Shown: positions 709 to 16,919 of the stretch, piece by piece
Numbering within the stretch: the first letter of the stretch is position 1
Layout of the letters: the number at the start of each line of letters is the position of its first letter
Origin: Stieleria neptunia
GTDB lineage: Bacteria > Planctomycetota > Planctomycetia > Pirellulales > Pirellulaceae
Reading direction: 5' to 3'
DNA: 64,000 bases
NCBI RefSeq assembly: GCF_007754155.1
Contig: NZ_CP037423.1
Location: 9,172,938-9,236,937, forward strand
Made by a program: the position numbers and the translations under genes
The notes under the pieces: model-generated
The model's input: the letters and a program-made list of their open reading frames with translations, nothing else
Databases searched by the model: none
Told to the model about the DNA's origin: nothing

Positions 709-716
709 TCGATTGG

Positions 717-815: not shown

Positions 816-1192
816 CGTCCGGCCACGACGAAGGCACGTGCGATCATCGCTCGCTGCCAATGTACTCGATCGGAATCGCCATGGGAAATTCCGTGGCCCA
901 ATCAGCAGTCGGCATTTCAGGCGTCCGTCTGCCGTGAATCGTACTCGTATTCAGCATCGCGGTACTCGCGCTCGCACTCGATCGACAGGCGACGGTTTGT
1001 CTTCGTCGGTCGAGTCGACCGCGCACCGATCCAACGATGACGTCAAATCCGAATCCTGGGAAACAGAGGTCTGACGAAATCCGGTGGGCGCCCGTCGGGT
1101 CACGATCAAACGACGGCGAATCAATTGCCACAAAAAAAACGCGAATACACACAAAAGAAGAAGTGGGCGCTGTCGTCAGGCGTCGGCTAGCA
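816..1192. repeat. Repeated cassette module, copy 1
   Basis: This 377-bp stretch contains the module hallmark CCAATGTACTCGATCGGAAT near 855 and the segments GTCGACCGCGCACC and AAGAAGTGGGCGCTGTCGTC shared with other copies. It has the long middle with GTACTCG-type repeats. Reading frames on both strands are broken relative to copy 7, so I do not call a gene. Confidence 0.8.
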
Positions 1193-1289
1193 GCGCAAAC
1201 GGTAGCCGTCACCGAGGACGGACGATCTATTTTCTACTTCAAAAACCGCGCAAGCCGTCCTTCGCGTGCGTGCACGGCGTGGTTATCGC
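1193..1289 (-). repeat. attC2
   Basis: The low core is GCGCAAAC and the high core GTTATCGC. The arms GGTAGCCGTCACC and GCACGGCGTGGTT pair, with the unpaired G of TGCAC in the high arm. The stop codon of the next gene lies inside the high core. Confidence 0.85.
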
Positions 1290-1660
1290 CTGACTGGCGT
1301 TTTTGCTTCTGCGATCTCTTCGGCACGCTGAAACTGTCGCCGAAACCACCAACCGATAGCTAGCACGCAGGCGAGCACAAGGATGCCTGGTTCGAATATC
1401 GCCGACAACATAACACCAGCAGCTAACCACCAGACACGAGGCGTGACTCCGAAAAGAGATGAGGATGTGTTCACGTCGAACCAATGCAAACCAGAGTACA
1501 CGGACGCAAGAAACACCGGCACGAAGAAGATCGCTGTACTGCTATTCCAGCCGAGCGCATCCCAAGGTGCTGACAGTCCAAGAAGGGACAGCGCGAAGGT
1601 CGCCGAAGTCGCCAGCAATAAATACGTCGAATCGCGATCACGGGTTTCCATGTTGGACAC
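1283..1660 (-). CDS. Small integral membrane protein, cassette gene
   Basis: The product is 125 residues from a GTG at 1660, or 122 from the ATG at 1651. I see three hydrophobic segments: one near residues 13-33, one near 43-60 and a long one near 76-105 that may be a hairpin. The C-terminus is Arg-rich and probably cytoplasmic. I do not recognise a family. The TAA stop falls inside the high core of attC2 and the start lies about 25 bp from attC3, so the gene fills its cassette exactly. Confidence 0.75.
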   Translation of the reverse strand: MSNMETRDRDSTYLLLATSATFALSLLGLSAPWDALGWNSSTAIFFVPVFLASVYSGLHWFDVNTSSSLFGVTPRVWWLAAGVMLSAIFEPGILVLACVLAIGWWFRRQFQRAEEIAEAKTPVRR

Positions 1661-1682
1661 TCGATTGTGTTAGGTGATTTGT

Positions 1683-1753
1683 GCGATAACGAATTGCGAT
1701 CTATCCGCGCATGCGGAGGAACGGGGATCCATCGTCCGCCAGAACGTTGTCGC
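1683..1753 (-). repeat. attC3 (short type)
   Basis: The low core is GCGATAAC and the high core GTTGTCGC, giving a 71-bp site with arms TTGCGATCTATCC and GGATCCATCGTC. The low core is the exact complement of the attC2 high core. It is nearly identical to attC13. Confidence 0.75.
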
Positions 1754-2456
1754 TCCTCTGGTGGGCCGGTCACAGCACTGGATTAGAACGGATCCTGCCA
1801 GATGTTGCCAGTTTCTCAGGCCCAGTAGAACTCGAGCTGGGTGACGGGAGGACGGTCCGCTTCGGACTCCGGCCTCCTTGCACTTTCTTGTTCACTTTTC
1901 GTACTACCAGTCGTACCAAGTGCGAAAACTCGTCACCCATCGCGGCGTCCGAACTATCCCGGAGGGATCACAGCGATTAGCCGGAGGTCAGCGCAGCGCC
2001 ACCTCCGGGCAACGCGCCGATTCCGCCCCTCGACCCCGGACGGGGTCGCAGCAAACCTCGATGCCCGCCGTGCTCAGCCTCTCGCTCAATGGCACCCCCA
2101 AAGACCGACCGGAAACTCGGCATCGACACACTGGGCGCAAGTCGTTTTCCCAATCAGCCAGATGCAGAAAGAAGGTAGGAAAATTTCGGGTAGGAAAACG
2201 GATGCCCGAAAAACGACACCCCCTGCTCTCTTTTCCTACCCAAAATTTTCCTACCTCCATCTCCAGCCGATGCTTCATCCGCGCTTCATCATCAGCCCCC
2301 CGCTCCTCTTCACGTTGAGAAAGCTGGCGAAGACGCCGACGACCTACGGCCAGAGGATTTGAGACGCCGACCTCAGCCTACGGCCCGAAGTCCCACGCTG
2401 GCCTCAGCCCATTGCGACCGCACGTCAACCGTTGAAGCGGAAAGCAATTCGATTAA
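1754..2456. other. Decayed cassette body without an intact gene
   Basis: The part near 1800-1975 resembles the 3-prime end of the zinc-ribbon gene in the cassette at 7601-8375 (minus-strand reading ends TQLEFYWA against AQFEFAWD there), but frames are broken. The right end, 2335-2456, is similar to 8255-8375. Between them lie the palindromes CCGGAGGT...ACCTCCGG near 1980 and the large inverted repeat at 2174-2255. I see no complete gene here. Confidence 0.6.
2174..2255. repeat. Palindrome built on the motif GGTAGGAAAATTT
   Basis: GGTAGGAAAATTTCGGGTAG at the left returns in inverted order at the right as CTACCCAAAATTTTCCTACC, with arms of about 25 bp and a spacer of about 33 bp. It looks like a MITE or REP-type insertion in the decayed cassette. 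Confidence 0.7.
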
Positions 2457-2573
2457 GTTCAACGGTGACGATCACCCCGTTCACGGACCAACGGGTTGGC
2501 GTCGAAATTGGAGTGAGTGTCGTCACGGTGGAAAGATTCGTCGATCGCAGCAATGAGTGAACTGGGGTTATCA
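2457..2573 (-). repeat. attC4 (irregular)
   Basis: The low core is GTTCAAC, the same as in attC14, and the high core is GTTATCA. The arms pair only partly (ATCACCCCGTTCAC against GTGAACTGGGGTTAT). Support comes mostly from the high core complementing attC5 and from the gene stop lying in it. Confidence 0.5.
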
Positions 2574-3083
2574 TCCCAGGAGTACTTTCTTTGCGATTGG
2601 CTGCGATGACGGCGCATTTAGTATTTCGACTGCCTTGCCAAGTATCGGATGCTCATCATCAGACAAGGTCAGCAGGCGTACCAGAATGTCACCAAACTCA
2701 GACGAGGCGACGCATTCGTGCATGACACTTAAGCATGCGTCATAGATCGCATTCCCAAACTTGCTATAGAACTGCTCGTCTTCGAGCGGCTCGTCATACT
2801 TGCGGTACATCGTTTCCAGGCCCTCACAGCTTAAGCCAAACGTCCTCCCATTGGGAACATATTCCCATCCATCTAGGCTCGGGATGTTGTCTAGCTCCGA
2901 GGGGACTTTCGGATTCTTGGCGATTCGCGAAATGATACCGTCGTTTGAGAAATCGGAAGGTAGTTCAAGCGCAAAACCGCAAACGGCCGGGTCGCTTCTC
3001 AAGTCTTTCAGATGAGAAACGAGCTCCTGATGCAAGATGCGTTGCCATTGAACGATATCTCCGCTTGGATCGACTGATGCCAT
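2571..3083 (-). CDS. DUF4303-like cytosolic protein, cassette gene
   Basis: The product is 170 residues from the ATG at 3083. It starts MASVDPSGDIVQWQRILHQE and contains a beta-strand-like FALELPSDF near residue 33, a central segment around WEYVPNGRTFGL, and a helical C-terminus. The layout (amphipathic helix, FAL-type strand, W-x-Y core) reminds me of DUF4303 proteins of polymorphic toxin and immunity neighbourhoods, but I cannot confirm that. There is no signal peptide or membrane segment. The stop TGA is inside the attC4 high core and the start is 31 bp from attC5. Confidence 0.7.
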   Translation of the reverse strand: MASVDPSGDIVQWQRILHQELVSHLKDLRSDPAVCGFALELPSDFSNDGIISRIAKNPKVPSELDNIPSLDGWEYVPNGRTFGLSCEGLETMYRKYDEPLEDEQFYSKFGNAIYDACLSVMHECVASSEFGDILVRLLTLSDDEHPILGKAVEILNAPSSQPIAKKVLLG

Positions 3084-3113
3084 AGAGGTGTAACCAAACT
3101 TGGATTCAATTAA

Positions 3114-3208
3114 TGATAACGTCCACCGTTCACCGCGGCACGGCGAACGACATTGTGTTTTCAATTGACGACGACCCCGTGCCTGCGTGTGCGGGCGGAT
3201 GGTTCGCG
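3114..3208 (-). repeat. attC5
   Basis: The low core TGATAAC is the exact complement of the attC4 high core; the high core is GTTCGCG. The arms CACCGCGGCACGG and CCGTGCCTGCGTGTG pair. It belongs to the same subtype as attC1. Confidence 0.8.
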
Positions 3209-3545
3209 CGTCGGGCATCGGCGACAGCCCGTGCCATCGACGCTAATTGCCAATGTACTCGATCGGAATCGTCGTGGGAAATTCGGTACCCCAATCAGCA
3301 GCCGGCACGTCAGGCGTCGGTTGTCAGCGTTGGTATCAACAGGCGTCGGTCTGTCTTCCTCGGCCGAGTCGACCGCGCACCTATCGAACGGTGACATCAA
3401 ATGCGAATCCCAGGAAACAGAGGTTCGATGACATCCGGTGGGCGAACTTCGGGTCACGATCAAACGACCGTAAATCAATTGCCACAAAAGAACGCGAGAA
3501 GACGCAAAAGAAGAAGTGGGCGCTGTCGTCAGGCGCCGGTCAGCA
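3209..3545. repeat. Repeated cassette module, copy 2
   Basis: The hallmark CCAATGTACTCGATCGGAAT starts at about 3251. The middle is the short variant containing TTGTCAGCGTTGGTAT instead of GTACTCG repeats. The right half, with GGGTCACGATCAAACGAC and the AAGAAGTGGGCGCTGTCGTC end, matches copies 5, 8 and 9. Confidence 0.85.
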
Positions 3546-3639
3546 GCGCGAACGGCGGAAATCACGCGGTCGGCGCGAGCGATCATCCACTTCAATGAAA
3601 CCCGACTCGCCGACTCGTCGTGCATCCGATTGTTATCGC
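3546..3639 (-). repeat. attC6
   Basis: The low core is GCGCGAAC, complementary to the attC5 end; the high core is GTTATCGC. The arms are ATCACGCGGTCGGCG and CGCCGACTCGTCGTGCAT. Confidence 0.85.
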
Positions 3640-4114
3640 ATGTCTAACCGAAGCACACGACTTCGTTCAGACGCTACGCGCAACTATAGCCAAGAAACGA
3701 GCACATGGTCGGTGCCGCAAGAAAGTCGGGGATATTGCAACGAGTAGAGACCACGCTAAATCCGGTTGGATATAGTCATCAATCAGCTGCTCCCTTCACG
3801 TTTCGCGTTCTCACGTTGCAATCTGATCCCTCTCAACAAAACGCCTCCACCCAACGGGATGCCAAGAAGACTTCCGAACACGTATGCCGAGTTTGACGGT
3901 TTGGGCACTAGATTATTCATCAGGAGTAGAAGGGAAGTAAGTGGGCCGACAATCCAGATTGCTCCCCAAATTAGGGATGGGGTCGCCGACGGTTGTTTCT
4001 CTGGAGCGCCCATAGGTTCTGGTGCATTGTTGGAAATTGACGAGTAGCAGTGTATGCGGTGAGAATGTAACTGGTAAGCAGTACCAACGTTTGTCGCAAC
4101 TGTGGGCCATCTTT
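3640..4114 (-). CDS. Small membrane protein in this cassette (coding part 3783-4013)
   Basis: Within this cassette body the gene runs on minus from ATG at 4013 to a stop at 3783, 76 residues. It has two hydrophobic segments, about residues 14-33 (LIWGAIWIVGPLTSLLLLM) and 43-60 (AYVFGSLLGIPLGGGVLL), and a basic C-terminus (RLQRENAKREGSS), which suggests a two-pass inner-membrane protein. No family is recognised. About 140 bp between the stop and attC6, and 100 bp upstream of the start, show nothing identifiable. Confidence 0.6.
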
Positions 4115-4207
4115 GCGATAACGGCGGTGGTCACCGCGTCGGCGCGATCGACCTGATCTCAAAAACAAACTCAACTCGCCGACTGCGGTGCACCACGTGG
4201 TTCACGC
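4115..4207 (-). repeat. attC7
   Basis: The low core GCGATAAC complements the attC6 high core; the high core is GTTCACGC. This is the common subtype with arms GGCGGTGGTCACCGCGTCGG and GCCGACTGCGGTGCACCACG, leaving the unpaired G of TGCAC in the high arm. Confidence 0.9.
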
Positions 4208-4794
4208 GTCCGGCCACGACGACAGCCCGAGCCATCGCCGCTGCTTGCCAATGTACTCCATCGAAATCGCCGTGGAAACTTTCACTCCCCTCGCTGAACC
4301 GATTTCTATGTGGAGTCGGGATGAAGCCCGGAGGGCTGGCACAATGCTTGCCGGTGGTGTCAGCCACCGGTATCGAAAGAACGGATTTGCGGAGGCCTGG
4401 AAGGCCGGCACAATGTGGCTCCGGGTCCACTCCAAGCCCGGATATTGTGTCGACCCGCTGGGCCTAGGGCGTGCCTTTGAATCCACCCCCGGTGGCTCAC
4501 GCCACCGGCAGACACTCTACCGGCCCTCCGGGCCTGAAAGCCGCCCTCGTACTCAGCACCGCGGTACTCGTGCTCGTACCCGAATCAACAGGCGTCGGTT
4601 TGTCTTCCTCGGCCGAGTCGACCGCGCACCTGTCGAACGATGACATCAAATGCGAATCTCAGGAAACAGAAGCTCGATGAAATCAGATGGGCGTCCTATG
4701 GGTCACGATCCAACGACGGCGAATCAATTGCCACAAAAGAACGCGAGAAGACGCAAAAGAAGAAGTGGGCGCTGTCGTCAGGCGTGGGTTACCA
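4208..4794. repeat. Repeated cassette module, copy 3, carrying an inserted repeat
   Basis: The module hallmark is at about 4249, but the sequence departs after GGAAACTTTC and returns at the GTACTCAGCACCGCGGTACT segment near 4550. The 270 bp between (about 4275-4546) are a different repeat rich in CCGG palindromes, with GCCGGTGGTGTCAGCCACCG and the phrase GAAGCCCGGAGGGCTGGCAC. Copy 11 has the same insertion at the same place. Confidence 0.8.
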
Positions 4795-4887
4795 GCGTGA
4801 ACGGCGGTGGTCACCGCGTCGGCGCGATCGACCTGAACTCAAAAACAAACTCAACTCGCCGACTGCGGTGCACCACTTGGTTCACGC
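4795..4887 (-). repeat. attC8
   Basis: The low core GCGTGAAC complements the attC7 high core; the high core is GTTCACGC. It is almost identical to attC7. Confidence 0.9.
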
Positions 4888-5265
4888 GGTCGGCCATGGC
4901 GACAGCCCGAGCCATCGCCGCTGTTTGCCAATGTACTCAATCCGAATCGCCGTGGGAAATCGAGCGTCCTAATCTGCGGTCGGCATTTCAGGCGCCGGTT
5001 TGTCTTGGATCGTACTCGTACTCAGCATCGCGGTACTCGTACTCCTACTCGAATCGACAGGCGTCGGTTTGTCTTGGTCGACCGCGCATCTATCGAACCG
5101 TGACATCAAATGCGAATCTTAGGAAATGGAGGTCCGATGACATCAGGTGGGCCGAGTTCAGTCACAACGTTCAGCAGCGTGGGCGACCGGCATCGGTTTG
5201 TTTGCCTTCCAGTCGAGTACGAGTAGGAGTACCGGCTGACGCCTGAGTACGAGTACGATTTGGGA
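4888..5265. repeat. Repeated cassette module, copy 4
   Basis: The hallmark (CCAATGTACTCAATCCGAAT) is at about 4929 with the long GTACTCG-repeat middle. The second half is the alternative type: AGGTGGGCCGAGTTCAG, then a GAGTACGAGTAGGAGTACC segment near 5217 that is an inverted version of the middle repeats. Confidence 0.8.
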
Positions 5266-5358
5266 GCGCGAACGGCGGTGGTCACCGCGTCGGCGCGAAT
5301 GACCTGAACTCAAAAACAAACTCGACTCGCCGACTGCGGTGCACCACATGGTTCACGC
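5266..5358 (-). repeat. attC9
   Basis: The low core is GCGCGAAC (one mismatch to the attC8 end) and the high core GTTCACGC. It belongs to the common subtype. Confidence 0.9.
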
Positions 5359-5706
5359 GTCCGGCCACAACGACGGCACGCGCCATCGTCGTCGACAGCC
5401 AATGTACTCGATCGGAATCGCCGTGGGAAATTCGGTATCCCAATCAGCGGTCGGCACTTCAGACGCTGGTTTGTCTTGGATCGTGCTCGTAATCGATCGA
5501 CAGGCGTCGGCTTGTCTTCTTCGGCGGAGTCGACCGCGCACCTATCGAACCGTGACATCAAATGCGAATCCCAGGAAACGGAGGTTCGACGAATTCCGGT
5601 GGGCGCCCTTCGGGTCACGATTAAACGACAGCAAATCAATTGCCACAAAAGAACGCGAGAGAACACAAAAGAAGAAGTGGACGCTGTCGTCAGACGCCGG
5701 CTAGCA
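5359..5706. repeat. Repeated cassette module, copy 5
   Basis: The hallmark is at about 5398. A shortened middle (GATCGTGCTCGTAATCGATC) changes the reading frame on both strands relative to copy 7. The right half is the standard type. Confidence 0.85.
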
Positions 5707-5798
5707 GCGTGAACGCTACGCGTCACCCGGTACGCACGAAAGATTTTCAACTTCAATAACGCTGACTCGCGTACTCGGGTACACGCGATTGTTCTGCG
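5707..5798 (-). repeat. attC10
   Basis: The low core GCGTGAAC complements the attC9 high core; the high core is GTTCTGCG. The arms are GCGTCACCCGGTACGC and GCGTACTCGGGTACACGC. Confidence 0.9.
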
Positions 5799-5810
5799 TT
5801 TTCACGATCG

Positions 5811-6215
5811 CTAAGGCCCTTCCATACGATGTAGCACCAGCACATCCTCGACCGTGTCAGTATCATCGTACACGATCGCCACGCTCCAAAGGTGACTGAC
5901 CAACAGACCGGCGCTCTCATCACGCTGACATCTAAGATAGTTCGCGTTGTCCACGCTGCGATACTCGCGGTCGCTACCAATGAACCCAGGATCTTCTGAA
6001 AACGAACCATTCCTGATGACCTTGCACTCAAACCCGGATTGCACCATGCGTGCTTTAGCGTCCTCAAGTGACGTTCCAATTGGCACGATCGCTCGAACGG
6101 CCGTCAGCATCTCGCCCTGGCTCTCTGCGCGGATCCGCGATTGCGAAATCGAACGGCAACCAGCCAACGAACCAACCAGCAATGCAATGGCAATGAATCT
6201 CAAAGACGGCTCCAT
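5811..6215 (-). CDS. Small lipoprotein, cassette gene
   Basis: The product is 134 residues from ATG 6215. The N-terminus MEPSLRFIAIALLVGSLAGC is a lipoprotein signal peptide with the lipobox LAGC and Cys20 as the likely lipidated residue. The mature part, about 114 residues, has a segment VPIGTSLEDAKARMVQSGFEC (split here as VPIGTSLEDAKAR and MVQSGFEC) that resembles the start of SmpA/BamE-like or DUF-type lipoprotein folds, then a strand-rich C-terminus. I infer anchoring in the cell envelope; function is unknown. The stop is 12 bp from attC10. Confidence 0.75.
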   Translation of the reverse strand: MEPSLRFIAIALLVGSLAGCRSISQSRIRAESQGEMLTAVRAIVPIGTSLEDAKARMVQSGFECKVIRNGSFSEDPGFIGSDREYRSVDNANYLRCQRDESAGLLVSHLWSVAIVYDDTDTVEDVLVLHRMEGP

Positions 6216-6221
6216 TCAGTA

Positions 6222-6351
6222 GCAGAACATCAGCGATCACCTCGCACGCAGACCTCTACGATTGAGATGGCGTGAGCGTGATGATCGAAACGGGGTAAGA
6301 GTTTGTGTATCGCGACAACGAGCGAGCTGGGGTGCATCGCCGGGTTCGTGG
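6222..6351 (-). repeat. attC11 (long type)
   Basis: The low core is GCAGAAC, complementary to the attC10 end; the high core is GTTCGTGG. Arms are ATCAGCGATCACCTCGCACG and GGGGTGCATCGCCGGGTTC. At 130 bp it is longer than most and nearly identical to attC22. Confidence 0.75.
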
Positions 6352-6696
6352 CGTCGGTCGGCACGCCGGTTTGGAACCATCGTCGCGGCTAGCCAATGTA
6401 CTCGATCAGAATCGCCAAGGGGAATTTCAGCGTCCCAATCTGCAGTCGGCATGTCAGGCGTCGGTCGTCAGCGTTGAAATCGTCAGGCGTTGGCTTGCCT
6501 TCGCCAGCCGAGTCGACCGCGTACCAATCGAACGATGGCATCAGGAGCGAATCCCAGGAAACGGAGGTTTGATGAGATCAGGTGGGCGTCGCTCGAACGC
6601 ACCAGTCGCGGCCGGAATGTCAGGCGTTGGTTTTGTTGCGGCCCAATCAATTGCGAGCACGAGCACCGTTTCACTGAGCACGAGCACGATTCAGCA
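6352..6696. repeat. Repeated cassette module, copy 6
   Basis: The hallmark (CCAATGTACTCGATCAGAAT) is at about 6394 with the short middle TCGTCAGCGTTGAAATCG. The right half is a third type containing GAGCACGAGCACCGTTTCAC repeats and is not shared with the other copies. Confidence 0.75.
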
Positions 6697-6789
6697 GCGT
6701 GAATGATCGCGATGACCGAGTCGCGACGAAGGAGCTTGCGATGCCCCAACGATCGGATTCGCGACTTCGGGTCCATCGCCTGGTTAGGC
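6697..6789 (-). repeat. attC12
   Basis: The low core is GCGTGAAT and the high core GTTAGGC, which fits the classic GTTRRRY consensus exactly. Arms are ATCGCGATGACCGAGTCGCG and CGCGACTTCGGGTCCATCGC. Confidence 0.85.
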
Positions 6790-6825
6790 TGACTGCTTAA
6801 CGCCACTGTCGGTGACAGCTAAACT

Positions 6826-7461
6826 TCATTTCGCTTTGCCGAGAACGAATTCCTTCAACTCACTCACTAGATCATCGGTGCCGTCGCGGTAGTACACACT
6901 CTTCACAACTCCGACTCCGGCGGCGTACCACAATTTGGATTTCGATGTGGTTAGGGTTCTTCCCTGGCGTTGAAAAGTATATTCGGCCACCACTGGGATC
7001 GCCAAATACTGACCGGCTGGCACCGATACAAGCTCCTCCTTTCCGATGGTGAAGGATGCAGTTTCATCAAGGTCTTGCTCTTCGTCACGGCTTTTGTTTA
7101 TCCACGTGACACCCGCTTTTGCTGGTAACTTCAGCAATGGTTTCCGGTTCTCAGATTTGCCTTCGATGTTTCGCACCAAGAACAAACCGCTGGGCGAAAC
7201 CGCACACATATACTCATTGAAACGCTTTCCGGAGTCGTGTCCGTATGCAGAGTTTTCTCGCGACAAAGTGACGACGTGCTCACCATCCACACGTTCGACT
7301 TTCGTAATCGTTTCAGTGACGGTAGTGATGCGGTCCCCCAAAGTTCTCTGAAGGACCCGCCTCGAGCCTTCCACCGTTGGGAAATACAAGTCCTGTGCAT
7401 TCACCATCGGAATTGCAAGGAAAAAGGCTAGGCAAGTAGAGAGTATCGTGGAGCTAGTCAT
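6826..7461 (-). CDS. Secreted beta-rich protein, cassette gene
   Basis: The product is 211 residues from ATG 7461. Residues 1-22 form a signal peptide ending VNA before QDLYF. The mature part begins DLYFPTVEGSRRVLQRTLGD, then has strand-rich stretches and a C-terminal motif KLWYAAGVGVVKSVYYRDG. This plan (YFP...G...W-type start, WYAxGVGxVK near the end) recalls secreted planctomycete proteins with a DUF3108-like or TapB-like fold, but I am not certain. It is one of the largest cassette genes and fills the space between attC12 and attC13. Confidence 0.75.
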   Translation of the reverse strand: MTSSTILSTCLAFFLAIPMVNAQDLYFPTVEGSRRVLQRTLGDRITTVTETITKVERVDGEHVVTLSRENSAYGHDSGKRFNEYMCAVSPSGLFLVRNIEGKSENRKPLLKLPAKAGVTWINKSRDEEQDLDETASFTIGKEELVSVPAGQYLAIPVVAEYTFQRQGRTLTTSKSKLWYAAGVGVVKSVYYRDGTDDLVSELKEFVLGKAK

Positions 7462-7529
7462 GAAAGATCTTGAGTATTTTGCGGCAGTTTAAGTTGCAGT
7501 ACCCGCAACCGATGGTTTCCATTTGGAAA

Positions 7530-7600
7530 GCCTAACGAATTGCGATCTATCCGCGCATGCGGAGGAACGGGGATAGATCGTGCGCCAGAACTTTGTCGGC
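7530..7600 (-). repeat. attC13 (short type)
   Basis: The low core GCCTAAC is an exact RYYYAAC match and complements the attC12 high core. The high side reads CTTTGTCGGC, which lacks the usual GTT. Arms CGATCTATCC and GGATAGATCG pair perfectly. Confidence 0.75.
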
Positions 7601-7661
7601 CTTCACGTGGGCCGGTGATGGGTCTCGATTAGAGCGGATCTTGGCGGTGGATGCCAGCGTT

Positions 7662-7959
7662 TTAGTCCCAGGCGAACTCGAACTGGGCGGCGGCAGGCCG
7701 GTCCGCTTCGGCCACTACCGCCTTTGCACTTTCTTCTTCACTTTTTAGGTACCAGTCGCACCAAGTGCGAAAAACCTTCACCCATCGCAGCGTCCCAAAA
7801 GCGACGATCATCAAGAGCCAATGACTCGCGGTACCAGTCCGAACAAGCTTTATTGCTTGGCCGAAAGAGATCCGCCCACGACGGCTTGTCGATCTCATCG
7901 ACAAGCGTCAACGATTCGCTGCCGCAGTGCTCGCAGACCAACCCGGAATCACAGTCCAA
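7662..7959 (-). pseudogene. Zinc-ribbon protein gene with a frameshift
   Basis: One minus frame gives LVCEHCGSESLTLVDEIDK, with a CxxC knuckle, then SWADLFRPSNKACSDWYRES, and runs to a stop at 7738. The adjacent frame takes over with WYLKSEEESAKAVVAEADRP and ends at 7662. The two frames read as one protein of about 95-100 residues broken near 7745-7760. The only near-start codon is a TTG at 7959, and the frame stays open upstream to about 8003. A further decayed copy of the 3-prime end is at 1800-1975. Confidence 0.5.
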
Positions 7960-9324: not shown

Positions 9325-9359
9325 GCGTTCGTGGCAGCGAAGTTGATCGCGACCAGCGT

Positions 9360-9452: not shown

Positions 9453-9470
9453 ACCAGTTTTTCATTGATG

Positions 9471-9977: not shown

Positions 9978-9998
9978 CGTTTGCTCAGTGCGCTCATT

Positions 9999-10091
9999 CG
10001 GCGAACGGCGGTGGTCACCGCGTCGGCGCGATCGACCTGAACTCAAAAACAAACTCAACTCGCCGACTGCGGTGCACCACGTGGTTCACGC
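9999..10091 (-). repeat. attC17
   Basis: The low core is CGGCGAAC, which does not match the attC16 high core, and the high core is GTTCACGC. It belongs to the common subtype. Confidence 0.9.
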
Positions 10092-10434
10092 GGTCGGCCA
10101 CGACGACGGCATGAGCCATCGCCGCTGATGGCCAATGTACTCGATCGGAATGGCAAAGGGAAATTCAGCGTCACAACCAGCGTTCGGCATTTCAGGCGTC
10201 GGTTTGTCTCCAATCGTACTCGAATCGACAGGCGACGGTTTGTCTTCCTCGGCCGAGTCGACCGCGCACCTATCGAACGATGGCATCAAATGCGAAACCC
10301 AGGAAACGGAGGTTCGACGAATTCCGGTGGGCGTCCTTCGGGTCACGATCAAACGACAGCAAATCAATTGCCACAAAAGAACGCGAGAAGACGCAAAAGA
10401 AGAAGTGGGCGCTGTCGTCAGGCGCCGGTCAGCA
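10092..10434. repeat. Repeated cassette module, copy 8
   Basis: The hallmark is at about 10132. A 36-bp in-frame deletion removes most of the GTACTCG repeats found in copy 7. The right half is the standard type. Minus and plus frames both stay open. Confidence 0.85.
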
Positions 10435-10527
10435 GCGCGAACGTCACGCGTCACCCGGTACGCGCGAAAGATTCTCCACTTCAAAACCGCCTGACTCGCG
10501 TACTCGGGTGCACGCGATTGTTCTGTG
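10435..10527 (-). repeat. attC18
   Basis: The low core is GCGCGAAC and the high core GTTCTGTG. Arms are CGCGTCACCCGGTACGCGCG and CGCGTACTCGGGTGCACGCG. Confidence 0.9.
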
Positions 10528-10528
10528 C

Positions 10529-10900
10529 TCAATAGTTTCCCACAAAGCAAAACGGCGTGTCCCTTAAATCAGCGTCATCGAGCACTGACTCAACTGTTTC
10601 CATCAGCTCAATATACGAAGCGTGCGTCTGCTCGTCCAATGCGCCAGGGTTGTCCCGAAGATGCTCCAGAACTGCTCGTGCAGCTTGTAGTCCCTTCGCC
10701 GAACTATGCCAGTGAGTAGAAGCGTTGCCGTATTCGCCTTCATAAACGTAAAAGTCATTGATCTGGTCTACGTCTAGATTCGCCGCAATGGTGTCCCAGT
10801 GCGGATGAAAACTGGCGAACTGCTCAGGGTCAACCGCGTGTAGATGATCGACACCAGGTACTGGTCGTTGCAATCGTAAGTGTAGCTTCTCCATCTGCAT
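10529..10900 (-). CDS. Cytosolic protein of unknown function, cassette gene
   Basis: The product is 123 residues from 10900, or 121 from the ATG at 10894. It is acidic, with many His and Asp residues (FHPHWDTIAANLDVDQINDF) and a helical C-terminal half (ARAVLEHLRDNPGALDEQ). No signal peptide or membrane segment is visible and I recognise no family. The stop lies just beyond attC18 and the start 9 bp from attC19, so it fills its cassette. Confidence 0.7.
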   Translation of the reverse strand: MQMEKLHLRLQRPVPGVDHLHAVDPEQFASFHPHWDTIAANLDVDQINDFYVYEGEYGNASTHWHSSAKGLQAARAVLEHLRDNPGALDEQTHASYIELMETVESVLDDADLRDTPFCFVGNY

Positions 10901-10908
10901 CTACCTAT

Positions 10909-11111
10909 GCACAGAACGTCTACGTTCAACGTCTACGTTCAACGTCTACGTTCAACGTCTACGTTCAACGTCTACGTTCAACGTCTACGTTCAACGTCTA
11001 CGTTCAACGTCTACGTTCACCGAGTTAGCGGCGGTAAACGCTGGCGGGTGAGTGGGCTGATTGGCACTTCGTTGCCCCTGATGCTAAGTTCGGTGCAACG
11101 TTTGGTTGAAC
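10909..11111 (-). repeat. attC19, with one arm expanded by tandem repeats
   Basis: The low core GCACAGAAC complements the attC18 end, and the high core GTTGAAC complements the low core of attC20. The low arm reads GAACGTCTACGTTC then ACCGAGTTAGC; the high arm reads GCTAAGTTCGGTGCAACG. They pair, with the usual unpaired G of TGCAC in the high arm. The low arm is stretched by eight copies of a 13-bp unit. Confidence 0.75.
10918..11021. repeat. 13-bp tandem array GTCTACGTTCAAC, eight units
   Basis: Seven perfect units run from 10918 to 11008 and an eighth, GTCTACGTTCACC, completes the array at 11021. The array sits wholly inside the low arm of attC19. Confidence 0.95.
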
Positions 11112-11292
11112 GAGGCCTTCGTTCGGCCCCGATGTCGTGGGACCGGCTCGACCGATGTTTAGGAGTTTACCCGATCGAACGACCCGTCGTGAGGGATTCT
11201 AGCAGCTGTCCCCAACGAATGGATCTCATCGGGCGCGCACCTTCGGTACCGTCGGTGGCAATGGCTGTCCCTTGTGAAATTCTCCAGCGGCA
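11112..11292. other. Non-coding segment downstream of the transposase gene
   Basis: No gene is seen. A short hairpin, GAACGAGGCCTTCGTTC, lies at 11109-11125 at the edge of the attC core. In IS91-type elements the replication origin end lies 3-prime of the transposase, so this stretch is a candidate for that end, but there is no motif I can confirm. Confidence 0.35.
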
Positions 11293-12489
11293 TCATGCGG
11301 CTTGCCCTTGTTTCTCACGCCAAGAATACGCATCAGAGGGAGGATCCCGCCCGGCGGAAAATTCGTGATGCGAGACCAACCGTTTACCACACACCGGACA
11401 CGTGCAAGCATCAAGAAGCCCGGCCGACTCGCACCATTGTTGCCAAGTCAACTGTTCAAGCGAGTCGGACTCTGGCGGCTCCACGCCGAGCGCGGCACGG
11501 GCCTCATCGAGCTGGGAGTATTGGTTGCCGCTGTACAGACCGTAGCCGCGAACCGTCTGAAATCGCCGCGGCGGCACGTGCTCCAGCCAGCGGCCGAGAA
11601 ACTGATCGATCGGCAACGCGGTCACCCCCTGACGTTTCCCGTCCCCACCGTCCTGCGTTCCAATCCGATAGCGAAACACGACCTTGTCATCTTGAACGTC
11701 CAGTAACCGTGACTTGCCGATCGGGCCGCCCTTGATGTACCGAGCCAAATAGGTCGCCACACCGGAGCCATCACGATAGGCGTCAAATATTTTGACGTTC
11801 CACGGTTTGTCGCTGAGCTTGGCCAACAGCTTCTGAAAGTCGGACGCGCTCATCGAGTCGGGCAATTGGATCTTGCCTGATTGAACCTTCTGCTGAAGCA
11901 TCGCCTTGAATTTGCCGCGGAACTTGAGCATCAACACTTTGCGGGGCAGCAAACAATCTTTTTGGGGACGGCGCCACGTCCCATCACCAGCCAGCCCGCC
12001 GGCGGTGACGATGCAATGCAAGTGCACGTGCGGCAACAGGGTCTGGTTCCAGGTGTGCAGCGCCGCCAGGATCCCAGGCTTCGCACCGAGGTACTTGGGG
12101 TCCTTGAGCAGTTGCTGGAGTGTTTCCTTCGCGGCGTTGAAGAGGGTCTCGGCATAGGCAGCCTTGTTGAACCGCCAGATTCGATTCAGTTCGCTCGGGA
12201 GTGTGAAGACGATGTGATGATGCGGGCAGGGCAGCAAGCGTTGCTTACATTTGGCCAGCCACTGCTCTCGGGCCACCCAGGCGCACTGGGGGCAGCACCG
12301 ATGCCGACAGGAGTTGTAGGCGATGCTGTGGTAGTGACCTTCGGGGCAACTGTCGACGTGCCCACCGAGCGTCCGAGTGCGACAGTGTTGGATGCACCAT
12401 GCGGCGCGAAGCATCTCCCGCGAGACGTGAAAACGCGAGGCGAAGGAGTCGAAATAGCGTCCGAAAATCTGTTGAAGCGTGATGGCCAT
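11293..12489 (-). CDS. IS91-family HUH transposase
   Basis: The product is 398 residues from ATG 12489 (a GTG lies two codons upstream). The N-terminal zinc-binding domain shows HVDSCPEGHYHS and SCRHRCCPQC. The nuclease core has the HUH motif HVHLHCIV near residue 155 and the paired tyrosines YLARY near residue 265, as in Y2 rolling-circle transposases of IS91/IS801 type, which nick single strands. The length matches the family and the frame is intact. The start is only about 43 bp from the attC20 low core, and attC19 and attC20 bracket it with complementary cores, so it occupies a cassette position. Confidence 0.9.
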   Translation of the reverse strand: MAITLQQIFGRYFDSFASRFHVSREMLRAAWCIQHCRTRTLGGHVDSCPEGHYHSIAYNSCRHRCCPQCAWVAREQWLAKCKQRLLPCPHHHIVFTLPSELNRIWRFNKAAYAETLFNAAKETLQQLLKDPKYLGAKPGILAALHTWNQTLLPHVHLHCIVTAGGLAGDGTWRRPQKDCLLPRKVLMLKFRGKFKAMLQQKVQSGKIQLPDSMSASDFQKLLAKLSDKPWNVKIFDAYRDGSGVATYLARYIKGGPIGKSRLLDVQDDKVVFRYRIGTQDGGDGKRQGVTALPIDQFLGRWLEHVPPRRFQTVRGYGLYSGNQYSQLDEARAALGVEPPESDSLEQLTWQQWCESAGLLDACTCPVCGKRLVSHHEFSAGRDPPSDAYSWREKQGQAA

Positions 12490-12531
12490 CGGCACCTCGC
12501 AATCAATGCTTGCAGCTCAACCCGAAGGCCA

Positions 12532-12622
12532 GTTCAACGATACGAATCACATGGCGACGGCGAACGACGTGACCACAGGACCAAAGCCAACTCCGTCGCT
12601 CATGTGCATTCGCTGGTTCGCC
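12532..12622 (-). repeat. attC20
   Basis: The low core GTTCAAC complements the attC19 high core; the high core is GTTCGCC. Arms are ACGAATCACATGGCGACGG and CCGTCGCTCATGTGCATTCG, with the unpaired G in the high arm. Confidence 0.9.
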
Positions 12623-12625
12623 GCA

Positions 12626-12922
12626 TCATCGCCGTCGCAAGACCACCTCTATGTCGGAGGGACGCCCTCGACCATCGAGAACAGCAACGACCTCCACGCC
12701 GGTTCCGATGATACGGTAGTAGATCAAATATGGATGGCGAGAAGCAATTTTACGATGAAATCCGAAATGGGTTTCGTGAATCCCGGCGGTGTCTTTCAAT
12801 GCGTCAATGTCATCGAAAATCCGCTCAAAAAAATAGTCACCCGCTCCATCGCTTTGGTGGTCGTAAAACGCCACGCCTTCAGCAATATCCAATCGGGCCT
12901 CATCGAGAACTTCGACGTTCAT
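12626..12922 (-). CDS. ParE/RelE-superfamily toxin
   Basis: The product is 98 residues from ATG 12922. It opens with VEVLDEARLDIAEGVAFYD, continues with the helix HQSDGAGDYFFERIFDDIDA, then the strands FHRKIASRHPYLIYYRI and GVEVVAVLDGRGRP. This is the standard plan of the ParE/RelE fold: two helices, then a beta sheet with the YxIYY strand and a V-x-V-x-x-V-x-x-x-R end. The toxin would act on gyrase or on ribosome-bound mRNA. Its start overlaps the end of the upstream antitoxin gene by 23 bp, and the pair forms one cassette with attC20. Confidence 0.85.
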   Translation of the reverse strand: MNVEVLDEARLDIAEGVAFYDHQSDGAGDYFFERIFDDIDALKDTAGIHETHFGFHRKIASRHPYLIYYRIIGTGVEVVAVLDGRGRPSDIEVVLRRR

Positions 12923-13130
12923 CGATCATCCGTTTCACTTCATTTTTTGCATCGGTGACCGACATTTTCGGCTTGTCACTTGGATTGGCCTCACGATACG
13001 CGAGCACTTCTCCGTGCCATGGAGGGGAAGCTAGATTCTGCGGATCGGCCGAAAGTCGTTGCCAAAGCAAGTCAAAAGCGGCCTGTTGCTGTTCAGCGCT
13101 AAGTGTGTCGATAAATGACTCAATGTTCAT
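12900..13130 (-). CDS. Antitoxin of the cassette toxin-antitoxin pair
   Basis: The product is 76 residues from ATG 13130, preceded by a good Shine-Dalgarno sequence (GAGAGGAC) 6-7 bp upstream. It starts MNIESFIDTLSAEQQQAAFD and ends EVKRMIDERRSSR; it is helical, with a charged C-terminus expected to wrap the toxin. It matches the short addiction-module antitoxins that precede ParE-type toxins. The overlap with the toxin start implies translational coupling. Toxin-antitoxin cassettes are typical of large chromosomal integrons, where they stabilise the array. Confidence 0.8.
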   Translation of the reverse strand: MNIESFIDTLSAEQQQAAFDLLWQRLSADPQNLASPPWHGEVLAYREANPSDKPKMSVTDAKNEVKRMIDERRSSR

Positions 13131-13205
13131 CGGAAGTCCTCTCACGCGAGCCATTTTAGCAGGACGCACACGTCCTGTCGACGATTGGCGACCAACTCGT
13201 TCTGC

Positions 13206-13298
13206 CGGCGAACGGCGGTGGTCACCGCGTCGGCGCGATGGACCTGAACTCAAAAACAAACTCGACTCGCCGACTGCGGTGCACCACATAGTTCGCGC
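13206..13298 (-). repeat. attC21
   Basis: The low core CGGCGAAC complements the attC20 end; the high core is GTTCGCGC. It belongs to the common subtype. Confidence 0.9.
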
Positions 13299-13635
13299 GG
13301 TCGGCCACGACGACAGCCCAAGCCGTCGCCGCTGTTTGCCAATGTAGTCGATCGGAATCACCGTGGGAAATCGCGAGTCCGAATCAACCGGCCGGCACTT
13401 CAGACGTCGGTTGTCAGCGTTGGCATCGACAGGCGTCGGTTTGTCTTCTTCGGCCGAGACGACCGCGCACCTAACGAACCGTGACATCAAATGCGAATCC
13501 CAGGAAACGGAGGTTCGATGACATCCGGTGGGCGATCTTGGGGTCACGATCAAACGACAGCGAATCAATTGCCACAAAAGAACGCAAGAAGACGCAAAAG
13601 AAGAAGTGGGCGCTGTCGTCAGGCGTCGGTTAGCA
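13299..13635. repeat. Repeated cassette module, copy 9
   Basis: The hallmark is CCAATGTAGTCGATCGGAAT at about 13339, with a G in place of C. It has the short middle TTGTCAGCGTTGGCATCG and the standard right half. The minus-strand frame has a stop near the hallmark. Confidence 0.85.
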
Positions 13636-13766
13636 GCGTGAACATCAGCGATCACCTCGCACGCGGACCTCTACGATTGAGTTGGCGTGAGCGTGATGAT
13701 CGAAACGGGGTGGAAGTTTGTGTCTCGCGGCAACGAGTGTGCTGGGGTGCATCGCCGGGTTCGTAG
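13636..13766 (-). repeat. attC22 (long type)
   Basis: The low core is GCGTGAAC and the high core GTTCGTAG. It is nearly identical to attC11 over 130 bp, and the module copies next to the two sites (6 and 10) also resemble each other. Confidence 0.75.
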
Positions 13767-14114
13767 CGTGGGTCGGCACGCCGATTTGGAACATCGTCGC
13801 GGTTTGCCAATGTACTCCATTCGAATTGCCAAGGGAAATTCCGGCGTCCCAATCTGCAGCCGGCATGTCAGGCGTCGGTCGTCAGCGTTGAAATTGTCAG
13901 GCGTCGGTTGGTCTTCGTCAGCCGAGTCGACCGCGCACCGATCGAACGATGACATCAAATGCGAATCCCAGGAAATTGAGGTCCGATGAATTCAGGTGGG
14001 CCGAGTTCAGCCACAACGTTCTGCAACGTGGGCGACCGGCATCGGTTTGTTTGCCATCCGGTCGAGTAGGAGTACGAGTACCGGCTGACGCCTGAGTACG
14101 AGTACGATTTGGGA
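13767..14114. repeat. Repeated cassette module, copy 10
   Basis: The hallmark (CCAATGTACTCCATTCGAAT) is at about 13808, with the short middle TCGTCAGCGTTGAAATTG as in copy 6. The right half is the alternative type with GAGTAGGAGTACGAGTACCG, as in copies 4 and 11. Confidence 0.8.
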
Positions 14115-14206
14115 GCGTGAACGGTAGCCGTAACCGGGAACGGACAGTTGACTTTCCATTTATAAAACCCTGCAAGCCGTTCTCCGGTTCACGGCATGGT
14201 TCTCCG
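14115..14206 (-). repeat. attC23
   Basis: The low core is GCGTGAAC and the high core GTTCTCCG. Arms are GGTAGCCGTAACCGGGAACG and CGTTCTCCGGTTCACGGCAT. Confidence 0.85.
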
Positions 14207-14588
14207 CCGCTTCGGTCACCGATGCGCCTCGCATTTCAACATCGTCACGCCAAGCACGTCGAACGACAGAAATGGATACCGACAGAGTAAGAATCACGAG
14301 AGCCAATGCATAGCCTTCTGTTGGATTGCCGCCGTTTATTGCCGTCCCGATGCCGAAAAGAACAATTGCGAAGACGTGCATTGCGAAGGCAGAGTTCCAC
14401 GTTAGCAGTCCAGTTGCCGCAGCGGAGTAAGCAGGAGCGTTGATGCAGGCCAGTACGATTGGAATCGAAACCGCGAGATGCCGCCAGTTCCATGTGTCAC
14501 CAAACAGCCATACGACACAGGCAATCGCATATACGGGCAACGCCAAACCGAATGCGAGCAGAGCGAGGATGGCCAATACGTAGTCCAT
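14160..14588 (-). CDS. Multi-span membrane protein, cassette gene
   Basis: The product is 142 residues from ATG 14588 (MDYVLAILALLAFGLALPVY); the frame continues upstream only into attC24. Hydrophobic segments lie near residues 3-27, 34-52, 57-82 and 93-109, suggesting four spans, followed by a charged C-terminus. The last codons and the stop run into attC23, so the attC stem encodes the C-terminal residues. No family is recognised. Confidence 0.65.
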   Translation of the reverse strand: MDYVLAILALLAFGLALPVYAIACVVWLFGDTWNWRHLAVSIPIVLACINAPAYSAAATGLLTWNSAFAMHVFAIVLFGIGTAINGGNPTEGYALALVILTLSVSISVVRRAWRDDVEMRGASVTEAAENHAVNRRTACRVL

Positions 14589-14628
14589 ATGCCGATTGAA
14601 TCTAGTTGTCAGCGTTGCGTCAATCAGT

Positions 14629-14720
14629 CGGAGAACGGTACGGATCACGTGGTCGCCGCGAACGACTCACCATTTCGATAAACTCAACTCGGCGACTCAC
14701 GTGCATCCGATGGTTCTGGC
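14629..14720 (-). repeat. attC24
   Basis: The low core CGGAGAAC complements the attC23 high core; the high core is GTTCTGGC. Arms are CGGATCACGTGGTCGCCG and CGGCGACTCACGTGCATCCG. Confidence 0.9.
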
Positions 14721-14738
14721 TTGCCTGTCCGCGACGAT

Positions 14739-15002
14739 CTACTTTCGGCGTTTGAAGATACATACCGAGACCGCATCTCGGTTCGTAGGCGTAAAGGTGG
14801 CTACAAGCTCCCATCCGCTGGCACCAAGCTTGTTAGCTTTCGCTCGGTCGAAACCACCGCCATGAACCTCAAGTTCTTGATACTCCCACGCGGGAACTTG
14901 TCGAGGATTGGCGTTCTGAGCGCGGCTTGGTTGCTGGGCAATTCCAAACCATGTGACCAAAACAAAAACGAGAGCGATTACAAAGTAGGCTGACCGTTTC
15001 AT
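14739..15002 (-). CDS. Secreted DUF4177-like protein, cassette gene
   Basis: The product is 87 residues from ATG 15002. A signal peptide (KRSAYFVIALVFVLVTWFG) is followed by a short mature domain: WEYQELEVHG, then KANKLGASGWELVATF, then VSVCIFKRRK. The W-E-Y strand, the helix ending in L-G-A-x-G-W-E-L-V and the final F-K-R strand are the hallmark of DUF4177/DUF4842-type small domains, here exported rather than cytosolic. The function of that domain is unknown. The stop is 18 bp from attC24. Confidence 0.75.
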   Translation of the reverse strand: MKRSAYFVIALVFVLVTWFGIAQQPSRAQNANPRQVPAWEYQELEVHGGGFDRAKANKLGASGWELVATFTPTNRDAVSVCIFKRRK

Positions 15003-15172
15003 GAAAGACTCCGCTTGGGATTGGGGAAAATGCTGCAGTCAGATCGTGGTCACGCATACCGTGCGCCAAAGAAGGTCTCTAACCCAATCCTGCGGGCAAC
15101 ACATGAATCGGTGATTATAGGAGTTTCAAAGTGATGACACGGGGGGATCAATGTGAGACCGCGACTACGCTT
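15003..15172. other. Spacer upstream of the DUF4177-like gene
   Basis: This 170-bp spacer shows no gene or clear hairpin. It is longer than other cassette leaders, so it might hold a promoter for the gene at 14739-15002, but I see no convincing -35/-10 pair. Confidence 0.4.
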
Positions 15173-15265
15173 GCCAGAACGGTTGCGATCACGCGGCGGC
15201 GACGGGTGATTTACCACTTCATGCAACTTGACTTCGCCGCTCGTCGTGCATCGCGTGGTTACGCC
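15173..15265 (-). repeat. attC25
   Basis: The low core GCCAGAAC complements the attC24 high core; the high core is GTTACGCC. Arms are GCGATCACGCGGCGGCGACG and CGCCGCTCGTCGTGCATCGC. It is similar to attC16. Confidence 0.9.
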
Positions 15266-15681
15266 ACCTTCTCATAGTAGAGCATCGGTGGAGCGACGAA
15301 CCAGAATTGTTCTTCGCGGTGGTCGGGCATTCCCAAGTATGCCCAAAGCGTTGGATGAATTGACAGGGCAATTCCCCACAGCAGTCTGGCATGTTCGGTG
15401 AGCTTCTCGTGATCAGGGATCATATCGCGAGTGCACTCACATTGCCATCCGTCGCCGTCGTCACGTTGCTTGACGTTCGTCGACCATCTGATCGGCACAC
15501 GATTGCGGAATGCGGAAGCCATGTCGATTGATGGAAAAGTCAGCTGATGGATCACAGATCGTGGCTGCGTCAGATCATCATCCTCATCGCGAGCAATGGA
15601 AATTAGTTGGCCGACCGCGTCAACGAGGTGTGTGTCGAAGTCCCATTCCACGTAGCTGTCACTGCAGATGGTTGCAATCAT
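15259..15681 (-). CDS. Cytosolic protein of unknown function, cassette gene
   Basis: The product is 140 residues from ATG 15681; the frame stays open to 15738 through attC26, so the start is uncertain. The sequence is rich in Asp and Trp, with YVEWDFDTHLVDAVGQLISI and a C-terminal LWAYLGMPDHREEQFWFVAP. No signal peptide or motif known to me is visible. The TAA stop lies within the high core of attC25 (GTTACGCC), giving a tight fit between gene and recombination site. Confidence 0.65.
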   Translation of the reverse strand: MIATICSDSYVEWDFDTHLVDAVGQLISIARDEDDDLTQPRSVIHQLTFPSIDMASAFRNRVPIRWSTNVKQRDDGDGWQCECTRDMIPDHEKLTEHARLLWGIALSIHPTLWAYLGMPDHREEQFWFVAPPMLYYEKVA

Positions 15682-15718
15682 TCGCTTAAACCAACCGAAC
15701 AAACGTATGCTCCACTGC

Positions 15719-15811
15719 GGCGTAACGGCGGTGGTCACCGCGTCGGCGCGATCGACCTGATCTCAAAAACAAACTCAACTCGCCGACTGCGGTGCACCAC
15801 GTGGTTACGAC
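15719..15811 (-). repeat. attC26
   Basis: The low core GGCGTAAC complements the attC25 high core; the high core is GTTACGAC. It belongs to the common subtype although it closes a gene cassette rather than a module. Confidence 0.9.
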
Positions 15812-16215
15812 GATTCTTGTTCGGCTCGATGGCATGCGGACGCATGAGTTTTGTTGTCCGCGCCGTCCGCATTCCGGTGCCCCCGTGCATCCAGGTTCTC
15901 GGTCTTACGATACCGCATCCATTCTTTGTCCAGTCGCTTTAGTTCTTCGTCGGCGATGGCGTCAATCTTTTGCAGTGCGAAAAGAAGCGAGCGAGGCGAA
16001 ATTGGCGGCAACGTCATTGCGTGTTTCTTGCCGCAGGATCGACACGTCATCATCGGCGATCGAATGTCTCGTTGGTCTCGAATGTCTGATCGGAGGGACG
16101 TCATCCGCTCACAGAACGTGATGACTTCGCTCCAGTTTGGATTGTTGGACCAAAAGCGTTCCAGTTCGGCGAGCATTTCCGGAAACCAAGCTCGTTGGGC
16201 ATCGCCGGATGGCAT
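15805..16215 (-). CDS. Small protein with one CxxC knuckle, cassette gene
   Basis: The product is 136 residues from ATG 16215 (MPSGDAQRAWFPEMLAELER); the frame extends upstream to 16254 only through attC27. A central MTCRSCGKKHAMTLPPI holds one CxxC pair, possibly half of a zinc site, and is followed by a helical segment and a polar tail ending HRAEQESS. Function unknown. The stop TAA lies inside the attC26 high core. Confidence 0.6.
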   Translation of the reverse strand: MPSGDAQRAWFPEMLAELERFWSNNPNWSEVITFCERMTSLRSDIRDQRDIRSPMMTCRSCGKKHAMTLPPISPRSLLFALQKIDAIADEELKRLDKEWMRYRKTENLDARGHRNADGADNKTHASACHRAEQESS

Positions 16216-16234
16216 CGAGAATGTGTCCCTTTGA

Positions 16235-16327
16235 GTCGTAACGGTGGTGGTCACCGCGTCGGCGCGATGGACCTGAACTCGAAAACAAACTCAACTCGCC
16301 GACTGCGGTGCACCACTTAGTTCACGC
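16235..16327 (-). repeat. attC27
   Basis: The low core GTCGTAAC complements the attC26 high core; the high core is GTTCACGC. It belongs to the common subtype. Confidence 0.9.
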
Positions 16328-16919
16328 GTCCGGCCTCGACGACGGCTTGAGCCATCGTCGCTCTGTGCCAATGTACTCCATCGGAAGCGCCGAGGGAAAT
16401 TTCACTCCCCTTGCTGTACCGATTTCTTTTTGGGTTCGGGATGAAGCCCGGAGGGCTGGCACAATGCTTGCCGGTGGTGTCAGCCACCGGTATCGAAAGT
16501 ACGAATTTGCTGAGGCCTGGAAGGCCGGCACAATGGGTCTCCCGGTCCACTCCAAGCCCGGGCATTGTGTCGGCCCGCTGGGCCCTGGGTATTCCTTTGA
16601 ATCCTCCCCCGGTGGCTGACGCCACCGGCAGACACTCTACCGGCCCTCCGGGCCTGAAAGCCGTCCTCGTACTCAGCAACGCGGTACTCGTACTCCTACT
16701 CGAATCGACAGGCATTGGTTTGTCTTCATCAGCCGAGTCGACCGCGCACCTATCGAACCGTGACATCAAATGCGAATCTTAGGAAACAGAGGTCTGGTGA
16801 AATCAGATGGGCCGAGTTCAGCCACAACGTTCAGCACCGTGGCCGACCGATGTTGGTCTGTTTGCCATTCTATCGAGTACGAGTACCGGCTGACGCCGAA
16901 GTACGAGTACGATTCAGGA
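16328..16919. repeat. Repeated cassette module, copy 11, carrying an inserted repeat
   Basis: The hallmark (CCAATGTACTCCATCGGAAG) is at about 16370. About 260 bp (16407-16665) of CCGG-palindrome repeat interrupt it at the same point as in copy 3. The right half is the alternative type with the inverted GAGTACGAGTACC segment near 16876. Confidence 0.8.

Follow-up and report, generated by a model that had tools for sequence, protein, structure and literature searches.

Integron cassettes without a gene have been reported from several bacterial groups. In Vibrio vulnificus, Boucher et al. 2006 (PMC1382264) described a non-coding cassette family present in 45 and 34 copies in two strains, and proposed that such cassettes are selfish elements or supply promoters or RNAs. 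Promoter activity was measured on the sense strand for most of the gene-less Vibrionaceae cassettes tested by Blanco et al. 2024 (PMC11014356), and for a few cassettes lacking an open reading frame (ORF) from oral Treponema by Tansirichaiya et al. 2019 (PMC6557892). In Xanthomonas, an integron cassette gives rise to sRNA-Xcc1 (named in PMC6557892, PMC12444791 and PMC8876359), and an "empty" cassette that recurs has been noted in a study of Xanthomonas. Here we analysed a stretch of 64,000 nucleotides of Stieleria neptunia (the window; contig NZ_CP037423.1, positions 9,172,938 to 9,236,937), in which an initial annotation had noticed eleven copies of a repeated module sharing a 20-bp hallmark, CCAATGTACTCGATCGGAAT. 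We are nearly certain that this module represents a lineage of non-coding integron cassettes in the genus Stieleria, most of whose copies measure about 430 or 470 bp with their attC site counted in.

The module resembles the V. vulnificus families in being non-coding, repeated within an array, conserved between the species of one group and, as far as was found, absent outside it. It differs in that Stieleria belongs to another phylum and in that its family counts 97 members over 11 arrays of one genome, many of these members lying in integrase-less arrays; the likeness is one of description. With the Vibrionaceae promoter cassettes it shares a size of about 0.5 kb and the lack of a gene. Those cassettes, however, were picked from four species and their activity was measured, whereas the Stieleria promoter is predicted and belongs to a single high-copy family. 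The Treponema study likewise concerns ORF-less cassettes able to supply promoters, one of them at the first array position, but its set is small, of metagenomic source and in part active in antisense. sRNA-Xcc1, too, is the non-coding product of a cassette and is met in more than one species; unlike the module, which has no Rfam match, it is a defined regulatory RNA, and its cassette also encodes symE in reverse orientation (PMC12444791). The module is accordingly of a known kind (high-copy non-coding cassettes, promoter cassettes), found here in another phylum, spread over integrase-less arrays and in about twice the copies of the largest published family in the texts seen. A limited literature search returned nothing that joins Stieleria and integrons, and we claim nothing wider.

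All eleven modules were recovered where they had been annotated. At no more than three mismatches, the hallmark has 11 sites in the window, all on the plus strand between positions 857 and 16387, and none in 100 shuffles of the window. The start points originally given (816, 3209 and so on to 16328) lie at or a few bases from the start of each module body, just right of an attC. Over the whole genome (one contig, 10,975,817 bases, same tolerance) we counted 104 hallmarks and no match to the reversed pattern, so that the initial remark on an unusually high copy number was right and understated.

The attC sites were located with a covariance model built from 16 window attCs, so that matches in the window arise partly by construction. 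The model found 273 attCs in the fetched pieces, grouped as 14 arrays or single sites, and the same cassette layout in the other arrays and in congeners. Each of the 11 modules in the window is flanked by model-predicted attCs, whose ends read AAC...GTT and whose arms are complementary. The cassettes of the window read on the minus strand, each consisting, leftwards, of a body and then an attC. The initial description of full cassettes closed by their own attC therefore stands, with the correction that this attC is at the left end of each module, because the cassettes read on the minus strand. The array and its modules are as follows.

1..17009, minus strand: window part of an integrase-less attC array (whole array at genome positions 9168352-9189946, 28 attC found)
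727..1197, minus strand: module cassette 1 (attC 727-811, hallmark 857-876)
3118..3550, minus strand: module cassette 2 (attC 3118-3204, hallmark 3250-3269)
4120..4799, minus strand: module cassette 3, 680-bp type, with an extra repeat of about 250 nt between block 1 and the hallmark (attC 4120-4202, hallmark 4248-4267)
4800..5270, minus strand: module cassette 4 (attC 4800-4882, hallmark 4928-4947)
5271..5711, minus strand: module cassette 5 (attC 5271-5353, hallmark 5399-5418)
6226..6701, minus strand: module cassette 6, long-attC subtype (attC 6226-6346, hallmark 6393-6412)
8380..8848, minus strand: module cassette 7 (attC 8380-8462, hallmark 8508-8527)
10004..10439, minus strand: module cassette 8 (attC 10004-10086, hallmark 10132-10151)
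13211..13640, minus strand: module cassette 9 (attC 13211-13293, hallmark 13339-13358)
13641..14119, minus strand: module cassette 10, long-attC subtype (attC 13641-13761, hallmark 13807-13826)
16240..16924, minus strand: module cassette 11, 685-bp type (attC 16240-16322, hallmark 16368-16387)

The alternation of modules with genes described initially holds only in part, since three modules stand in a row at 4120-5711 and two at 13211-14119; over 13 arrays, adjacent module pairs numbered 29 against 34.6 expected (one-sided P 0.06). Segmentation of the fetched stretches gave 259 cassettes, 92 with the hallmark, a share overstated relative to all attC cassettes because the stretches of this genome were picked through hallmark matches; further attCs lie elsewhere, for example near 1.22-1.235 Mb. 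Lengths of 468 and 429 bp are commonest, and the 680-bp type holds the extra repeat. The geometry is nearly fixed. In a set of 105 hallmarks (the 104 in the fetched stretches and one site with four mismatches), an attC on the same strand follows at 45 nt in 86 and at 46 nt in 5 (91/105 together), and 99 of the 100 hallmarks in or near arrays are oriented along the array strand, the exception being a site with three mismatches and no downstream attC. The extra repeat, which occupies about 4280-4530 and 16400-16650 of the window, contains CCGGTGGCTGACGCCACCGG-like palindromes, and in other parts of the genome pieces with a similar translation precede several hallmark copies that stand isolated.

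An all-against-all comparison of cassette bodies united 97 members (91 with the hallmark, 6 without) in 11 arrays into one family, leaving out one 84-bp "cassette" that consists of two adjoining attCs. The next families have 7, 7, 6 and 6 members, and 113 of the 166 gene cassettes are singletons. Mean pairwise identity is 89% over 44 distinct full-length copies. The nearest relative of a module lies in the same array for 15 of the 68 modules below 520 bp (permutation mean 15.05) and is its array neighbour for none of them; 23 of the 31 module pairs that exceed 97% identity link modules of different arrays. Neighbouring copies are no more alike than random ones (0.73 against 0.72). Assembly or tandem duplication, the former having been raised with the initial annotation, is thus discarded. 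The attCs are also largely the family's own: among sites of 75-95 nt, 66 of 82 module attCs share one type (at least 85% identity), against 3 of 159 gene attCs. Because of this dispersal and of the largely private attC type, we consider that the cassette travels from array to array across the chromosome together with its own attC.

The module shows no sign of coding for a protein. Over six frames and three regions (the whole body and the middle block in 44 copies, the hallmark region in 100 sequences), the ratio of non-synonymous to synonymous polymorphism (pN/pS), computed on all of them after a first round on samples (20 of the 44 copies, 30 of the 100 sequences) that likewise gave no support for coding, ranged from 0.75 to 1.14, with z values of -0.71 to +0.78 relative to 100 column shuffles each. 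No frame shows purifying selection, which had been named initially as the mark of an ordinary gene family. Furthermore, 282 of the 328 alignment gaps in the 44 copies have a length that is not a multiple of three, and column entropy showed no three-base rhythm in three segments. With pN/pS within 0.8 standard deviations of the shuffles and most gaps frame-breaking, a coding gene family is unsupported. By a like measure, two transposon-type ORF families used as coding controls gave 0.30 and 0.17 in frame; of the other gene-cassette families used in the same way, two failed (0.89 and 0.79) and two had too few changes to be judged. Non-coding cassettes of Vibrio have also been delimited by length, under working definitions that allow no ORF longer than 150 bp (PMC1382264) or 210 bp (PMC11014356), and by this rule the modules would not qualify: a sense ORF of at least 90 amino acids is present in 21 of the 68 short ones. 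Because GC-rich DNA can be expected to hold long ORFs by chance, we restrict our claim to "non-coding by codon test".

The lineage extends through the genus. The hallmark pattern has at least one match in 12 of 14 Stieleria genomes, with counts of 104, 40, 24, 14, 12, 11, 6, 4, 3, 2, 2, 1, 0 and 0 (the lowest may be partly chance) and none for the reversed controls. A search with the module sequence matched at least 10 of 13 congeners and at least one of 46 other relatives of the family or order, the latter at E 7.8e-4; match counts for modules and attCs in relatives are minimum values (11 candidates scored for most genomes, at most 150 attCs), and all 14 genus genomes have attC matches. In five congeners, in stretches picked by matches, AAC stands 44-46 nt downstream of 83 of 90 hallmarks. 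Altogether, 176 natural copies linked to an attC were collected in the genus, 93 from this genome and 83 from the five relatives. Over 92 dereplicated genus sequences, two blocks of the body are conserved, one at about 130-240 nt and the other at about 0-80 nt upstream of attC. Because these blocks are kept across species, a mere spacer, one of the initial guesses, is unlikely.

How could such a cassette have spread? The genome has one match over the TIGR02249 cut-off for integron integrases (380 bits, 9036714-9037652), about 135 kb from the window. Relatives of it are the integrases of S. sedimenti and Rhodopirellula sp. SM50, at 99% identity, and that of TBK1r, at 81%. The array that bears it has 60 segmented cassettes, of which 30, including the first four, are modules, and a copy of the IS91-type transposase lies between attI and the first module. 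On an SM50 contig (L165), attI is followed immediately by the first 91 nt of a module, at which point the contig stops, and in TBK1r a module is the second attC-bounded cassette; the 5.6-kb integrase contig of S. sedimenti has no hallmark at up to four mismatches. The position of the SM50 module supports the idea that the integrase carries out the movement: it would copy the module and move it to many arrays, including those without an adjacent integrase. We also noticed that the stretches L165 and L164 and this genome (9038064-9039846) have a near-identical integrase and attI, followed by different first cassettes (a module, a gene-like one and an IS91-type one), which suggests recent cassette turnover in these three close strains. 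The module does not appear to derive from attI. The only match within attI proper was a 10-nt BLAST hit (E 3.0), and the longer matches were module copies in the first cassettes. Besides the integron integrase, two tyrosine recombinases (frames of 360 and 346 amino acids) are each present in five genome copies of equal or near-equal score, at 398204, 1228297, 7273510, 9075768 and 9874994 for one and at 1217333, 2549047, 7276867, 9049030 and 10325776 for the other; several belong to attC arrays, and some of the cassettes that carry them measure 3.2-3.5 kb and include a 706-amino-acid ORF.

As to function, the reading that we favour, and hold in about even balance with all others together, is that of a mobile promoter cassette dispersed by the integrase. 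The predicted sense promoter would be TTCCC[A/T]-N17-TACATT, located some 45 nt ahead of attC and with its second part inside the hallmark. The start of transcription would fall some 7 nt after TACATT and about 40 nt short of attC (about position 852 in copy 1). From there, close to a small hairpin, the RNA would extend across attC into the following gene cassette, which would have no promoter of its own and whose start codon would lie about 20 nt past attC. In copy 1 the putative elements are placed as follows.

859..887, minus strand: promoter-like site (-10-like TACATT 859-864, 17-nt spacer, -35-like TTCCCA 882-887)
812..856 (45 nt), minus strand: stretch between hallmark and attC, with a partly paired family hairpin of presumed function

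TACATT stands at the same place in all 11 window copies. In the genus alignment (100 of 103 dereplicated sequences, 176 before dereplication; the three congener rows left out all have TACATT), the hallmark has just two invariant bases, T and A in TACATT, a contrast that counts only within the hallmark because the rows were selected by hallmark likeness. The hexamer is intact in 92 of the 100 sequences; in 58, it is preceded at 17 nt by TTCCCT or TTCCCA. In a scan for TTGACA/TATAAT-like pairs over 1110 sense placements, the hallmark site ranks first with a mean of 7.8 out of 12 (best antisense site, 7.05), and it is also the best site in the genus alignment (column-shuffle P 0.04). Furthermore, the distance from attC to the next ORF start has a median of 20 nt after a module and 33 nt after a gene cassette (43 and 59 distinct genes, one-sided P 0.0015; P 0.007 when permuted within arrays, P 0.014 in module-rich arrays only). 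The hairpin, whose doubly changed cells exceed those of shuffles (see below), adds a weak point in favour. These data make a promoter cassette the best supported of the functions guessed at initially, at the level of a prediction from sequence.

Several observations weigh against this reading. Column shuffles of the own-genome alignment reach the best promoter score with P 0.31 on both strands and 0.18 on the sense strand only. A stricter consensus scan listed 0 of the 11 hallmark sites and found 8 sites in the region for 8.7 expected. The -35-like element is poor beside the TTGACT-N17-TACTAT of the attI region of the integrase-bearing integron (TAAGAT in TBK1r), which we take for the putative promoter Pc. 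Taken alone, the motif is weak evidence. Leaders of at least 60 nt do not differ significantly in frequency after modules and gene cassettes (5/43 against 13/59, P 0.20), and the ORF starts are longest-ORF calls. Some arrays have few modules, such as that at 8.17-8.20 Mb with 4 of 34 cassettes, and modules often stand in tandem. In one hallmark-region frame, the genus-wide entropy is higher at codon position 3 (0.64) than at positions 1 and 2 (0.51 and 0.52). The putative hairpin adds its own difficulties: pairs changed on both sides number 4 against 4.9 in shuffles, further pair types 19 against 18.8, 6 of its 11 pairs vary on one side only, and RNAalifold predicted no pair on all 100 sequences.

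The module could instead be a selfish cassette without any cell function, common only through an attC that folds and recombines better than those of genes, a reading that we find somewhat unlikely. The prevalence of one attC type among the modules agrees with it, as does the distribution of the copies over arrays as in permutation. The folded bottom strand is also more stable, with a mean of -19.3 against -15.8 kcal/mol for gene attCs (82 and 159 sites, DNA parameters, P 1.4e-15). However, the top strand is likewise more stable (-20.1 against -16.3 kcal/mol), which makes fold energy an indirect proxy. Moreover, an attC alone would suffice for such an element, yet two body blocks are kept genus-wide and the hallmark keeps its distance to attC and its two invariant bases, although recent common descent could account for part of this conservation.

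That the conserved 3' part is a structured trans-acting RNA, comparable to sRNA-Xcc1, seems improbable to us. The hairpin between hallmark and attC pairs in 85% of cells, and doubly changed cells number 37 against 20.7 in shuffles (reached in 0 of 500). Consensus folding gave z values of -2.5 in sense and -1.4 in antisense for 14 sequences of this genome, and -3.0 and -0.5 for a genus subset of 18. On the other hand, the hairpin beats shuffles on only 3 of 5 measures, and relatedness can produce such a result; G-U cells number 243 and A-C cells 39, but 150 of the 243 come from two pairs whose most frequent form is G-U. Rfam gave no window match at gathering scores and none at E 1 for 10000-10530, which holds one copy, a result that extends to attC-targeting introns and sRNA-Xcc1 if Rfam holds them. 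Moreover, a single trans-acting RNA would hardly be expected in some 100 variable copies. The initial guess of a small RNA thus retains a sense-strand hairpin signal, a weak hint, and has no Rfam match behind it. We give equally little credit to the view that the copies are remnants of a gene cassette in decay, or intergenic repeats that cassettes captured as a mosaic, and that chance alone has kept them. The body is indeed a mosaic, its first 100 nt or so and its middle being exchanged between copies, and long chance ORFs are present, but no frame bears coding constraint and the hallmark-attC geometry is kept in five congeners. As for the decaying duplicated gene proposed initially, no source gene was found, and no protein database search was made for one.

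Other features of the window array deserve mention. An IS91-family transposase (Y2_Tnp, Zn_Tnp_IS91) forms a 1530-bp integron cassette at 11006-12535; segmentation places 6 members of its family in 3 arrays, and relatives lie in the arrays at 9.04-9.08 and 9.84-9.88 Mb. About eight tandem repeats of a 13-bp unit, AACGTCTACGTTC, occupy 10915-11031 at the border of this cassette. A ParE-like toxin gene lies in an array cassette at 12626-12922, and the ORF just upstream could be its antitoxin.

In conclusion, the mobile promoter cassette reading bears on how the distant cassettes of huge integrons, and those of integrase-less arrays, get expressed. What high-copy non-coding cassettes are for was a question already asked of Vibrio in 2006, in terms of "selfish or promoter/RNA" (PMC1382264), and the 176 Stieleria copies, with their fixed geometry, precise predicted start and distinct attC type, make both ideas testable in environmental bacteria and laboratory strains. 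Tentatively, and as a possibility that we rate well below even, one integrase may seed some hundred promoter cassettes across the genome, each at once selfish, through an efficient private attC, and an expression unit. If this promoter-distribution system exists, arrays cut off from Pc and from the integrase would stay expressed, and gene cassettes would gain or lose a promoter by shuffling.

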